The notes below the pieces were generated by a model. The model saw only the letters and a program-made list of their open reading frames with translations, was not told the DNA's origin and did not search any database. The position numbers were made by a program, and so were the translations under genes. Below, in pieces: positions 30,133 to 38,287 of a DNA stretch of 38,287 nt (position 1 is its first letter; each line of letters starts with the position of its first letter). Source of the stretch: Acidobacteriota bacterium (lineage in GTDB: Bacteria > Acidobacteriota > Terriglobia > Acidiferrales > UBA7541); the NCBI GenBank assembly GCA_003223255.1, contig QHYJ01000283.1, positions 1 through 38,287 on the forward strand, written 5' to 3'.

Positions 30133-32907
30133 CTACAGGCCGGCCAATAGGAACACGTAGCTGCCGGAGCCGACCTCGACGAGCACCGCGTCGCCCGATT
30201 GGCGAGCTCCAAGGAGGTCCGGGCGGTTCGAGAGTGGCTTCTGCCCTTCGGTAACTTGCTCGAGCTTAGCATTCGGCAAGCGTACCGTGGCTGTTGCGTT
30301 CGGCGGCACTTCGACGCTGAGCGTGAATTTGCCATCCGCTAACTTCCAGCCCGAGGCCACCTGGCCGTACATGCTCTCTACCGAAGCGTTCGCGAAGGTC
30401 AAGCCGCCGCCGGGTTGCGGCTGGATCAAGATGTGTTTGTAGCCGGGATGACTCTCGTCGATCTCCATTCCTGCAATGACGCGATACATCCATTCGCCGA
30501 TCGCACCATAGGCGTAGTGGTTGAAAGAGTTCATATCCGGATCCTGAAAAGTGCCGTCGGGTTTGATGCCGTCCCAGCGTTCCCAGATGGTGGTCGCGCC
30601 TTTGGTCACGGGATAGAGCCAGGAAGGATATTCGGTGCGATTCAGCAGCATGTACGCGAGATCGACGTAGCCATAATCGCTCAGGACCTGGCAGAGCAGT
30701 GGCGTGCCGAGGAATCCGGTGGTCAGATGCCCAAATTTTTTGACGTCGTCGGCGAGCCGCGCCGCAGCCCCCGCGCGCTGTGTTTCCGGCAACAAATCGA
30801 ATGCGAGCGCCATCGCGTAAGCCGTCTGCGTGTTCGAAGAAAGCCGGCCATTGGGCGTCACAAATTCTTTTTGAAATGCGTTCTTGATTTTCTCTTCGAG
30901 AGAAGCGAAGTCGACAGCGTCTCCTTTTTTCCCGAGCACTGCTGCAGTTTTTGCGAGCAACGCGGTCGAGCGCGCGAAATAGGCAGTCTGAATCAAATCC
31001 TTGTCCGTGGTTGCGCCGGGATAATCCGAGCGCGTGGTGGCAAAAGCGAGCCAATCTCCGAAGCTGAATCCGCTGCTCCAGAGATATTTTTCGCCTGCTT
31101 GCCGCCGCATGTACTCCACCCAAGATTTCATGCTGAGGTACTGTTCTTCGAGAATGCGCTTGTCGCCATAGGACTGATACAGGATCCACGGCACCACCAC
31201 GGCCACGTCCGCCCATCCGGCGGAGGCCGCCTCGCCCTTCCGCGTTTGATGCGACAAAACATTAGGAATCACGAACGGAACCGCGCCATCGTCTTCTTGA
31301 TCGAGAGCGACGTCTTTCAGCCACTTGGTATAAAACGCGGCGGTGCCGTGGTTAAACGAAGCAGTGCGCGCAAACACTTGCGCGTCGCCGGTCCAGCCCA
31401 GGCGTTCGTCGCGCTGCGGGCAGTCTGTGGGAACATCGAGGAAATTTCCTTTCTGTCCCCAAATGATGTTGTGCTGCAGCTGGTTCAAATGCGAATTGGA
31501 AGTTTCAAACGAGCCGGTACGCGGAATAGCGGAGTGCACGACGATGCCCGTAAAGTCCTTCGGATTGACTTCGCCGCGCCAGCCGCTGATCGCCACGTAG
31601 CGAAATCCCTGGAAAGTGAAGTGCGGCTGAAACGTTTCGGTTCCCTGCCCTTTGGTGGTGTAGCGAATGGTTTGCTCAGCCCAGCGCAGATTTGCGGTAT
31701 AGAAATTTCCGGCTTTGTCGAGCACTTCCGCATGGCGCAAGGTCATGGTGGTTCCGGCCGGCGCGCTCACGCGAAAACGGATCCAGCCCACCATGTTCTG
31801 TCCCATGTCGAGCACCGTGTCCCCTACCGGCGTTTTAAACACTTTTGCGGGAGTGATTTCTTCGATTGCTTTGACCGGAGGCCCCGCCGGAGCGACCAGT
31901 CTGGCTTTTGGAGGCTCCAGCATGGTCACCGATCTCCAAGTTGTGTCGTTGAATCCCGCTTCGTTCCAGCCAGGCTGCTCAAGGCGCGCATCGTAGGTTT
32001 CCCCGTTGTAAATGTCGGACTCCAGCACCGCCCCAGTCGAGGATTTCCATTGATCGTCGCTGCTGACGACCTGCTGCGAGCCATCCTTATAAGTAATGAC
32101 CAGTTGCGCCAGCAGCGCCAGCTTCTTGCCGTAGCGATTTCGATTATTTTTGTGATCCCATGCCAATCTTCCGCGGAACCAGCCATCTCCCAGCATGGCG
32201 GCAAGGCAGTTCGCGCCGGATTTGACCAAGTTCGTTATGTCGTAGGTCTGATACTGATAGCGGAAATCGTAGGAAGTCCATCCCGGCGTGAAATATTCAT
32301 CGCCAACGCGCTTGCCATTGAGCGACATTTCGTACAGCCCCATAGCCGTTGCATACAAGCGCGCTCGCTCAATTTTCTTCTCAATTTTCTTGTTGACGGA
32401 AAATTCCCTTCGCAGCAAGGGAGCGGGATTCGATTTCGTTTCTTCCTCGACAAGATTGGGGGTAATCCATTTTGCTTTCCAATCCGCAGGCTCGAGCAGG
32501 CCCATTTCCCAATGAGCGGGCTTGCTCCACTCGGACAAATGCCCGTGATTGTCGGCGGCGCGCACTTGCCAGTAATAAATCTTGCGGCTCTCGAGGGCGG
32601 GCCCGCTGTACTCCACCTGGATCGACGCGTCCGAAGATTGCTTTCCGCTCCCCCAGGTGAATTTTCCTTTTGCCAGCTCGGGTTCGGAGGGAGCCACGCG
32701 GATTTCGTAGCTTGTCTGAAGCACTCCCCTTTCCGCGCTTACCAGTTCCCAGCTCAGTCGCGGTTTTCGAACATCGATCCCGAGAGGATCCACTTTGTAC
32801 TCGCAGCGAAGGTTCTTAACCGTGAGCGGATTGTCGCCAAGTGCGCGGGCCGCCGCCAGCAAGGCGAATATGCCGGTCCATGCGACGATTCTGAGTTTCC
32901 AATTCAT
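30133..32907 (-). CDS. Secreted alpha-L-rhamnosidase (GH78)
   Basis: This 924-aa glycoside hydrolase releases terminal L-rhamnose from plant or bacterial glycans. The start at 32907 has AAGGAGA upstream and gives a Sec signal (LRIVAWTGIFALLAAARAL); a longer frame to 33036 lies beyond the probable promoter. Bacteroidetes/Acidobacteria-type GH78 domains follow: Bac_rhamnosid_N (WKAKWITP, ARLYATAMGLYEMSLNG), then the (alpha/alpha)6 barrel with the catalytic acid in QRDERLGWTGD and the second catalytic region FNHYAYGAIGEWMY. The C-terminal beta domain is complete. A perfect palindrome at 32979-32998 probably controls it. Confidence 0.96.
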   Translation of the reverse strand: MNWKLRIVAWTGIFALLAAARALGDNPLTVKNLRCEYKVDPLGIDVRKPRLSWELVSAERGVLQTSYEIRVAPSEPELAKGKFTWGSGKQSSDASIQVEYSGPALESRKIYYWQVRAADNHGHLSEWSKPAHWEMGLLEPADWKAKWITPNLVEEETKSNPAPLLRREFSVNKKIEKKIERARLYATAMGLYEMSLNGKRVGDEYFTPGWTSYDFRYQYQTYDITNLVKSGANCLAAMLGDGWFRGRLAWDHKNNRNRYGKKLALLAQLVITYKDGSQQVVSSDDQWKSSTGAVLESDIYNGETYDARLEQPGWNEAGFNDTTWRSVTMLEPPKARLVAPAGPPVKAIEEITPAKVFKTPVGDTVLDMGQNMVGWIRFRVSAPAGTTMTLRHAEVLDKAGNFYTANLRWAEQTIRYTTKGQGTETFQPHFTFQGFRYVAISGWRGEVNPKDFTGIVVHSAIPRTGSFETSNSHLNQLQHNIIWGQKGNFLDVPTDCPQRDERLGWTGDAQVFARTASFNHGTAAFYTKWLKDVALDQEDDGAVPFVIPNVLSHQTRKGEAASAGWADVAVVVPWILYQSYGDKRILEEQYLSMKSWVEYMRRQAGEKYLWSSGFSFGDWLAFATTRSDYPGATTDKDLIQTAYFARSTALLAKTAAVLGKKGDAVDFASLEEKIKNAFQKEFVTPNGRLSSNTQTAYAMALAFDLLPETQRAGAAARLADDVKKFGHLTTGFLGTPLLCQVLSDYGYVDLAYMLLNRTEYPSWLYPVTKGATTIWERWDGIKPDGTFQDPDMNSFNHYAYGAIGEWMYRVIAGMEIDESHPGYKHILIQPQPGGGLTFANASVESMYGQVASGWKLADGKFTLSVEVPPNATATVRLPNAKLEQVTEGQKPLSNRPDLLGARQSGDAVLVEVGSGSYVFLLAGL

Positions 32908-32978
32908 GCATTGTCTCCTTGTCGCGCGCCAACGGCCCAAGCTTGGTTTTTGACCGGTCCACGTTTCGGCAGACAGGA

Positions 32979-32998
32979 GGGCATGATATATCATGCCC
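32979..32998. promoter_or_regulatory. Perfect 20-bp palindrome upstream of the rhamnosidase gene
   Basis: GGGCATGATATATCATGCCC is a perfect palindrome 72 bp before the GH78 start codon. Its symmetry with an AT-rich centre is typical for a dimeric repressor such as GntR or LacI types. No repressor gene is adjacent in the window. Confidence 0.55.
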
Positions 32999-33081
32999 CT
33001 GGCGAGCGGAATGAAGCGTGGAGGCGGATATGTCATTACGGCGGGTGAAGAAACGGATACGAGCGAAGCCGGTGTAGGTTT

Positions 33082-36864: not shown

Positions 36865-36923
36865 GGCATGGTTGCGCGGAAGCGCGCGAGGATTGTGTGA
36901 ACGCGCGGGAGGAGGAGGCAGCT

Positions 36924-37787
36924 ATGAAGATTTCATCGTTGTTTCTCGGAGCCGGCTTATTGTTGGCCGTGTGCGGTTGCACAAACGCAGCGACGCCGCA
37001 AGCGGCGACCGATCAGGCCGCGCTGATGGGCAAAGCCAGCATCGTTTTTTCCGGCACAGTGAGCCAACTCGCAGCCACATCGTTTGCGGACGTGCCCAAA
37101 TCGACGCAGACCATTGTGGTGCACGTGGATTCGATTGTGAAGAAGCCGGCGGCGGTGTCGCTGAAGAGAGGCGACAGCGTCACTGTCGAAGTGAAAGACG
37201 CGTCCGCGTTCCAAGAGGGAACCCAAGCCACTTTTTATACCGATGGCTGGATTTTTGGTTCGGGCGTGGCGGTGAAGGAGTTGGGACATGTGATGGGGGC
37301 GGCGGTCGGGCCCGTTCATGTGACCACCGCGGGACAAAACCCGCAGGGGACGCCAGAGCAGATCAGTGACCAGGAATTGCGAGAGCGCATGAACACCTCG
37401 GATTACGTCGTGGTGGGGCGCGTCACAGACGTTCGTAAGTGGAACGCCCCCAAGAGCAAGTCGGGCGCGCCTTTGCACGTCACGGAGCACGACGCGGATT
37501 GGCACGAAGCGGTGGTGGAAGTTCAGTCGGTGCTGAAGGGCGGAAAAGTCAAAGGGAACAAAGTGATTGTGCGGTTTCCGAGTCGGAACGATGTGGCGTG
37601 GGTGCGTTCGCCCAAGTTCACGAAAAATCAGAGGGGTATTTTTTGTTTGAACCGGGGTCAGACCAGCGGCGCGCCCACAACGACCGTGAGTGGCCAACAA
37701 GGGAACGTGTATACGTGTCTGGGGCATGGGGATGCGCTGCCGATGTCGGAAGAAGCGCGGGTGCGGGCGCTGCTGAAGAATCCATAG
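36924..37787 (+). CDS. Lipoprotein with two similar halves
   Basis: This 287-aa protein has a lipoprotein signal (ISSLFLGAGLLLAVCGC) with the Cys of VCGC as the likely lipid anchor. GGAGGAGG precedes the ATG at 36924. The body seems to contain two related beta-rich halves: IVFSGTVSQLAA...IVVHVDSIVKKPAAVSLKRGDSVTVEV and VVVGRVTDVRKW...AVVEVQSVLKGGKVKGNKVIVRF. This points to an internal duplication. I recognise no named family. It is probably co-transcribed with the secreted BNR gene just upstream. Confidence 0.8.
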   Translation: MKISSLFLGAGLLLAVCGCTNAATPQAATDQAALMGKASIVFSGTVSQLAATSFADVPKSTQTIVVHVDSIVKKPAAVSLKRGDSVTVEVKDASAFQEGTQATFYTDGWIFGSGVAVKELGHVMGAAVGPVHVTTAGQNPQGTPEQISDQELRERMNTSDYVVVGRVTDVRKWNAPKSKSGAPLHVTEHDADWHEAVVEVQSVLKGGKVKGNKVIVRFPSRNDVAWVRSPKFTKNQRGIFCLNRGQTSGAPTTTVSGQQGNVYTCLGHGDALPMSEEARVRALLKNP

Positions 37788-37827
37788 GCCGGTCTTGGTC
37801 ACTGGACACCATGTTGAGCATGGAAGT

Positions 37828-37881
37828 TGGAGGCGCGGGGCGGAATCGAACCGCCGATAAAGGTTCAGCGCATCTGACCTT
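37828..37881 (-). pseudogene. tRNA-Cys-like 3' fragment
   Basis: On the minus strand the sequence contains a perfect T-arm (GGCGG-TTCGATT-CCGCC), a complete 3' acceptor strand CCGCGCC, discriminator U and CCA. U73 with a GGCGCGG-type acceptor is typical of tRNA-Cys. Anticodon-stem halves AAGGT/ACCTT are present, but their loop is 12 nt with no GCA anticodon. The D-arm and 5' acceptor strand are absent. It is a tRNA end such as integrative elements leave at attachment sites. Confidence 0.6.
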
Positions 37882-37919
37882 GCAGCGATGCAGAAGGCCG
37901 GTGTTGAATGGCGCGCGTT

Positions 37920-38228
37920 TCATGCTTTCCGCCGCGGGCTGGCGGCCGTCTTTGCGCGACGAGGATGTGCTGCATGAATCGGGCGTGGCAAGCTGCGAAC
38001 CCACTCAACAACCTGCGCCCAATCAAACACGAGGTGCCTTCCAAGATTGTATACGGGAATCGGAGATGAACAGCCCCTTCTGATTTTCTCTCTTACCCAG
38101 GGCACATCGGCGTGCAGGCGGCGCGCCACTTCTTCAATAGAAATGAATTGATCGGGAGCTAGCCTGACTTCCCTTTGAAATATAGAAAACCTCTTACAAG
38201 GAAGGAGTTTGCGCCTGAAATGTAGCAA
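37920..38228 (-). CDS. Excisionase-like helix-turn-helix protein
   Basis: The frame contains an HTH_17/excisionase-type DNA-binding domain: FISIEEVARRLHADVPWVRE, then YNLGRHLVFDWAQVVEWV. The C-terminal tail is rich in Arg, Ala and Lys. Such small proteins help excise or control integrated elements. The start is uncertain: the only clear candidate is TTG at 38228, which lies inside a direct repeat, so translation may begin later or the gene may have lost its start. It sits 39 bp from the tRNA fragment. Confidence 0.6.
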   Translation of the reverse strand: MLHFRRKLLPCKRFSIFQREVRLAPDQFISIEEVARRLHADVPWVREKIRRGCSSPIPVYNLGRHLVFDWAQVVEWVRSLPRPIHAAHPRRAKTAASPRRKA

Positions 38229-38285
38229 GTAATAATTTAAGATTGGGCTTGCATTACTGTATTTATTTGCTGTAATGTAGCACGT
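38215..38285. repeat. 16-bp direct repeats in an AT-rich stretch
   Basis: CTGAAATGTAGCAAGT (38215-38230) and CTGTAATGTAGCACGT (38270-38285) match at 14 of 16 positions, 55 bp apart. Between them CATTAC (38252-38257) and GTAATG (38272-38277) form an inverted repeat. The stretch 38221-38280 is far richer in AT than the rest of the window, suggesting foreign origin, a promoter/operator or recombinase-binding sites. Confidence 0.5.
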
Positions 38286-38287
38286 AT

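Follow-up and report, generated by a model that had tools for sequence, protein, structure and literature searches.

Positions 37828-38287 of the window are very likely the edge of a decayed tyrosine-integrase element that split a tRNA-Cys gene and that apparently carries a tRNA-Cys of its own in replacement of the lost copy. The window, 38,287 nt long, is the complete contig C261 (QHYJ01000283.1) of the genome under study (G000; 6.66 Mb in 428 contigs). As it is a whole contig, there is no sequence to the right of 38287, and the evidence has to come from the other contigs of G000 and from the relatives compared (G002, G011, G012, G014, G016-G019, G025, G029, G033, and G041). A preliminary description had placed the edge of an integrated element at a tRNA-Cys end here, and both tRNA halves, an empty site, an integrase shard, and an excisionase-like gene now support that placement. 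Elsewhere in the window, a 967-amino-acid open reading frame on the minus strand (30133-33036) resembles a glycoside hydrolase of the alpha-L-rhamnosidase-like kind.

The tRNA-Cys(gca) 3' half is real and occupies 37828-37865 on the minus strand, a correction of the earlier span of 37828-37855. Its 38 nt comprise the end of the anticodon arm, the variable loop, the T arm, the acceptor strand, U73, and CCA, and they are identical at 38 of 38 positions to the intact tRNA-Cys(gca) gene of G019 (E value of about 1e-12) and 95 to 100% identical to the genes of other relatives. ARAGORN calls no tRNA in the window, nor one at the junction of the tRNA half, and an Rfam scan of 37400-38287 returned only sub-threshold noise. 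To the left lies the chromosomal flank, a conserved gene of unknown function (36897-37787, plus strand), with homologues that are 78 to 79% identical in G019, G018, and G012. In all three (contigs C4, C41, and C115, respectively), an intact 74-nt tRNA-Cys comes after the homologue of window positions 35.2-37.79 kb, 0.2 to 1.7 kb beyond the flank gene. This uninterrupted gene is the empty site, and the synteny rules out a chance identity of 37828-37865 to tRNA-Cys. G019 also has an amidohydrolase-like gene between the flank gene and the tRNA that is missing at window positions 37787-37828, a gap of ~40 bp.

The gene order in G019 continues from the flank gene and the intact tRNA-Cys to a sulfurtransferase (rhodanese). 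Searching G000 with this region led to the sulfurtransferase gene on contig C191, which is not joined to C261 in the assembly, and directly adjoining it is a 41-nt tRNA-Cys 5' half (C191:2786-2826, ending ...CTGCAAAACCT). The check proposed earlier, a search for the intact tRNA-Cys and for a second copy of its end, has thus succeeded in modified form, with the 5' half in G000 and the uninterrupted gene in three relatives. When joined, C191:2786-2826 and 37828-37865 fold as a normal 74-nt tRNA-Cys(gca) (ARAGORN), and AACCT are the only bases common to both halves. Because the joined halves make a normal tRNA and the site is empty in relatives, the element lies between the halves, and we infer a single insertion with C261 at one end and C191 at the other.

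The tRNA-Cys gene is broken in the anticodon arm, and it is regenerated at neither junction, with ARAGORN folding neither G000 junction alone as a tRNA. The att-site anatomy described at first therefore stands as an integrated-element edge at tRNA-Cys and fails as the usual form of such a site, given the position of the break and a tRNA rebuilt at neither end. In a canonical genomic island, the tRNA would be regenerated at one of the junctions and the fragment in the window would be a displaced 3' end, which is how tyrosine integrases usually behave at tRNA genes (PMC4383910). However, the C191 sequence past the 5' half, GCCGAAAAAGCGGGGC..., has no T arm or acceptor, is not called by ARAGORN, and scores 20.9 bits with Rfam, below the cutoff, so that this highly improbable reading is already refuted for G000 unless another junction exists.

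Between the tRNA-Cys half and a helix-turn-helix (HTH) domain, the window retains a shard of a tyrosine-recombinase integrase (AMQKAGVEWRAFHAFRRGLAAVF..., box II HxxR; 37885-37971, plus strand). These 87 bp encode AMQKAGVEWRAFHAFRRGLAAVFARRG, which matches integrase catalytic box II, W-x-x-x-H-A-F-R-R-G-L, and the shard is matched to the integrases of related elements by tblastn (8e-9 and 1e-7) and by a profile hmmsearch (1.7e-8). An integrase had been predicted farther to the right; in G000, one is present beside the att site only as this box II shard, inside the window itself, while the full gene, in the full order of tRNA, integrase, and excisionase, is found in G033. The integrases of these elements are remote from those of known phages, with best matches of about 25% identity, and IMG/VR yielded only four distant ones. 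The anticodon-arm region of the window, AAGGTCAGATGCGCTGAACCTT, was at first read as a modified core. That reading was set aside, as an integrase reading frame can be traced upstream through the region, and AAGGTCAGATGCGCTGAACCTT may therefore be integrase sequence abutting the tRNA; a GACCTTG match between this region and G033 may be due to chance.

The excisionase-like HTH gene of the preliminary description likewise holds, as an open reading frame at 37920-38228 on the minus strand (PHROG excisionase, 2.6e-6); its matches to TIGR01764 (5e-4) and Pfam HTH_17 (1.4e-4) are both below the curated cutoffs. Its proximity to integrase sequence recurs in relatives, where an integrase lies within 1.5 kb at 22 of the 29 loci with homologues of the HTH protein. 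The first ~22 codons of the gene are supplied by an insertion sequence (IS) and its last codons run antisense over the integrase shard, so it is probably damaged.

This IS is of the IS1634 family, and its end fills 38159-38287 (plus strand). The segment is 75 to 95% identical at 11 or more places in G017, G018, G019, G025, and G041, with unrelated left flanks; these copies begin at or near TAGCCTGACTTCCC and lead into an IS1634-family transposase (NF033559; 5.8e-93, 312 bits against a cutoff of 100). The transposase is thus identified from the copies in relatives, and the window holds the IS end only, as contig C261 stops just at the start of the transposase gene. A search of the G000 assembly for the IS interior did not find it, and the IS therefore offers no way across the contig break. 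The AT-rich direct repeats, assigned earlier to the att site, are accounted for by this IS end, which extends to the contig end and has many copies in relatives, and that assignment is withdrawn. The IS insertion is later than the integration of the element.

The same plan is better preserved in "Ca. Acidiferrum typicum" RYN_23 (G033 contig C65; JAOAPV010000068.1), where a tRNA-Cys 3' half is followed 15 bp away by a 417-amino-acid integrase, then by an excisionase homologue that shares 62% identity over 73 residues with the window HTH protein, and then by further genes, including a large terminase. The tRNA-Cys site, integrase box, excisionase, and order are those of the window, but here the integrase is intact and phage genes are present, with the far end unassembled; a search of G033 found neither a tRNA-Cys 5' half nor the far prophage end. 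The full integrase in the same order shows that most of the window integrase has been deleted. No terminase of the G033 type was found in the G000 assembly, which is without the element interior, and, judged by its relatives, the element would be a prophage.

The integration genes and the G033 locus also bear on two other accounts of the split tRNA. In one, the contig is chimeric or the tRNA-like sequence arose by chance, as might be suspected from a contig end within 460 bp of the fragment and a genome in 428 contigs. That account is extremely improbable against a 38/38 identity in syntenic position, a complementary half on C191, an adjoining integrase and excisionase, and an independent parallel in G033. 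In the other, the gene is an intron-containing tRNA-Cys, the halves being exons around a self-splicing intron, since the split falls in the anticodon arm, where introns sit. This is scarcely conceivable, however, with integration genes at the break, with halves on different contigs and at least 420 and 2,780 bp of other DNA beside them, and with no intron model matched by Rfam in 37400-38287.

At four of the integrase loci examined, a tRNA half whose break falls in the anticodon arm precedes the integrase by no more than about 115 bp: Cys in G033, Arg(cct) in G014, Arg(ccg) in G017, and Arg(cct) in the metagenome-assembled contig JANXPR010000351.1. In G017, the Arg(ccg) 3' half precedes the integrase, and an intact Arg(ccg) lies behind. 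The whole plan is present on a single contig in G014 (C2), within 38.7 kb: a tRNA-Arg(cct) 5' half (249305-249346), an integrase (249434-250576), a terminase (256285-258348), an intact tRNA-Arg(cct) (287606-287682), and two tRNA-Arg(cct) 3' halves (287803-287847 and 287974-288020). A 14-bp core, AGTTTCCTAAACTC, is common to the 5' half and the last of the 3' halves, and these two together make up a tRNA-Arg(cct). The nesting of a second 3' half suggests that integration occurred more than once. Within 287606-288020, the two 3' halves differ from each other and lie 120 to 130 bp apart with TGTACCC repeats between them, and the intact tRNA with its two 3' halves looks like the outcome of nested insertions, each into the replacement tRNA left by the one before. 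Where no split half is visible near a related integrase, an intact tRNA (Arg, Thr, His, Lys, or Ser) is in most cases present 60 to 200 bp past the stop codon of the integrase gene, frequently with its 5' end turned toward that gene, an arrangement not expected of a rebuilt att site.

On C191, a complete but divergent tRNA-Cys(gca) (C191:2523-2599) lies on the element side of the 5' half, 187 bp from it, and matches each host tRNA-Cys at about two thirds of positions. Between the 5' half and the element interior, C191 carries, in this order, TTTTGGGTACAGTTTTGGGTATAG repeats (of the TTTTGGGTACAG type), a hairpin, and then this complete gene. By a rough estimate, the chance of a tRNA gene of the same isotype within 200 bp is 1e-4, and intact tRNAs of the matching isotype have parallels in G014 and G017. 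A comparable arrangement of a tRNA-Cys 5' half, TTGGGCATA-type repeats, and an intact tRNA-Cys 116 to 161 bp away is found in G025, G016, G011, G018, G029, and G002; it lies at the other tRNA-Cys locus, and the six cases could represent one old shared event instead of several independent ones. The repeats between the tRNA-Cys halves and the intact tRNA-Cys resemble the TGTACCC/TGTGCCC repeats before related integrases, and are probably arm-type integrase sites. Two further features of C191 were observed. At 2085-2218 on the minus strand, where the split tRNA-Cys faces the element, Rfam recognizes a tRNA (43.2 bits, above the cutoff) that has about 71 nt between its anticodon-stem strands and is not called by ARAGORN; it is possibly a second tRNA hit by a since-decayed element, or an unusual insertion. 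At 1-1830, a GGDEF gene and a Crp-like regulator (with an NNN gap) are not phage hallmarks; they have many copies throughout the genus, variously combined, and are maybe a separate mobile module.

We infer that the intact C191 tRNA-Cys belongs to the element, and it would be expressed and compensate for the split copy. It is also conceivable, if unlikely, that the element is the same but the nearby tRNA-Cys is incidental cargo, with the host surviving through another copy and no replacement mechanism at work. Indeed, G000 has a second intact tRNA-Cys on contig C385, and the search of 36 genomes of the genus lists related intact copies in most of them. The target was therefore not the only host tRNA-Cys, and the host may have been able to do without the lost copy. 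Against cargo, isotype-matched intact tRNAs recur beside split tRNAs for Cys, Arg(cct), and Arg(ccg).

Under the replacement reading that we favor, the integrase would recombine at a short core within the anticodon arm of the resident tRNA-Cys gene, as with the 14 bp in G014, and insertion of the element would split the gene into the 3' half on C261 and the 5' half on C191. Since so short a core cannot restore the tRNA, both junctions would leave the host copy destroyed, and the complete divergent tRNA-Cys at the far end of the element would take its place. Later, most of the integrase would have been deleted, and the IS1634-family IS would have landed where the excisionase gene begins; with both damaged, the G000 copy would be unable to excise by itself.

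This architecture matches tRNA-dependent lysogeny, defined by Guerrero-Bustamante and Hatfull in actinobacteriophages such as Fionnbharth of cluster L, in which recombination by a tyrosine integrase at a short core within a tRNA gene leaves that tRNA unrestored, and a tRNA of the same isotype is supplied by the element itself (PMC10865867). Given the second tRNA-Cys on C385, we do not claim that the element tRNA is needed; the match is one of architecture, and the element probably operates in this way. The G000 element and its relatives share with Fionnbharth and cluster L the tyrosine integrase, the short tRNA core, the unrebuilt tRNA, and the intact tRNA of the same isotype, but they differ in their Acidobacteriota hosts, their distant integrases, their tRNA-Cys and tRNA-Arg targets, and the redundancy of the host tRNA-Cys, and the G000 copy is a wreck. 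Prophage Lj965 of Lactobacillus johnsonii, as summarized in PMC10865867, also has an unrebuilt tRNA and a cognate tRNA on the prophage; it belongs to a different phylum, and the likeness is by description only. Genomic islands of the Islander type (PMC4383910) have in common a tyrosine integrase, a tRNA target, and a displaced 3' fragment marking one end, whereas in G000 the target gene is not regenerated. Tycheposons (PMC10872708), tRNA associated and with a tyrosine recombinase, bear a resemblance only.

A more tentative extension, to which we give somewhat less than even weight, is serial replacement in this acidobacterial lineage, in which elements would split the resident tRNA-Cys or tRNA-Arg at the anticodon and supply their own copy as the next target. 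The stacked halves around intact tRNAs in G014 C2 and G025 C129 fit this idea. At G025 C129 (2504-14001), a tRNA-Cys 5' half, an intact tRNA-Cys, and a 65-nt 3' part of a C191-type tRNA-Cys, with an additional 25-nt 3' fragment 11 kb further on, are a stack of insertions at one tRNA.

How frequent tRNA-dependent lysogeny is outside the actinobacteriophages was left open by the authors who described it (PMC10865867). The G000 locus and its relatives provide sequence-level cases in Acidobacteriota for two tRNA isotypes, one of them complete on a single contig (G014 C2). They point to split tRNAs that may be missed or misannotated and to tRNA genes counted as those of the host that may be element borne. 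If serial replacement is true, part of the host tRNA set would be of phage origin.
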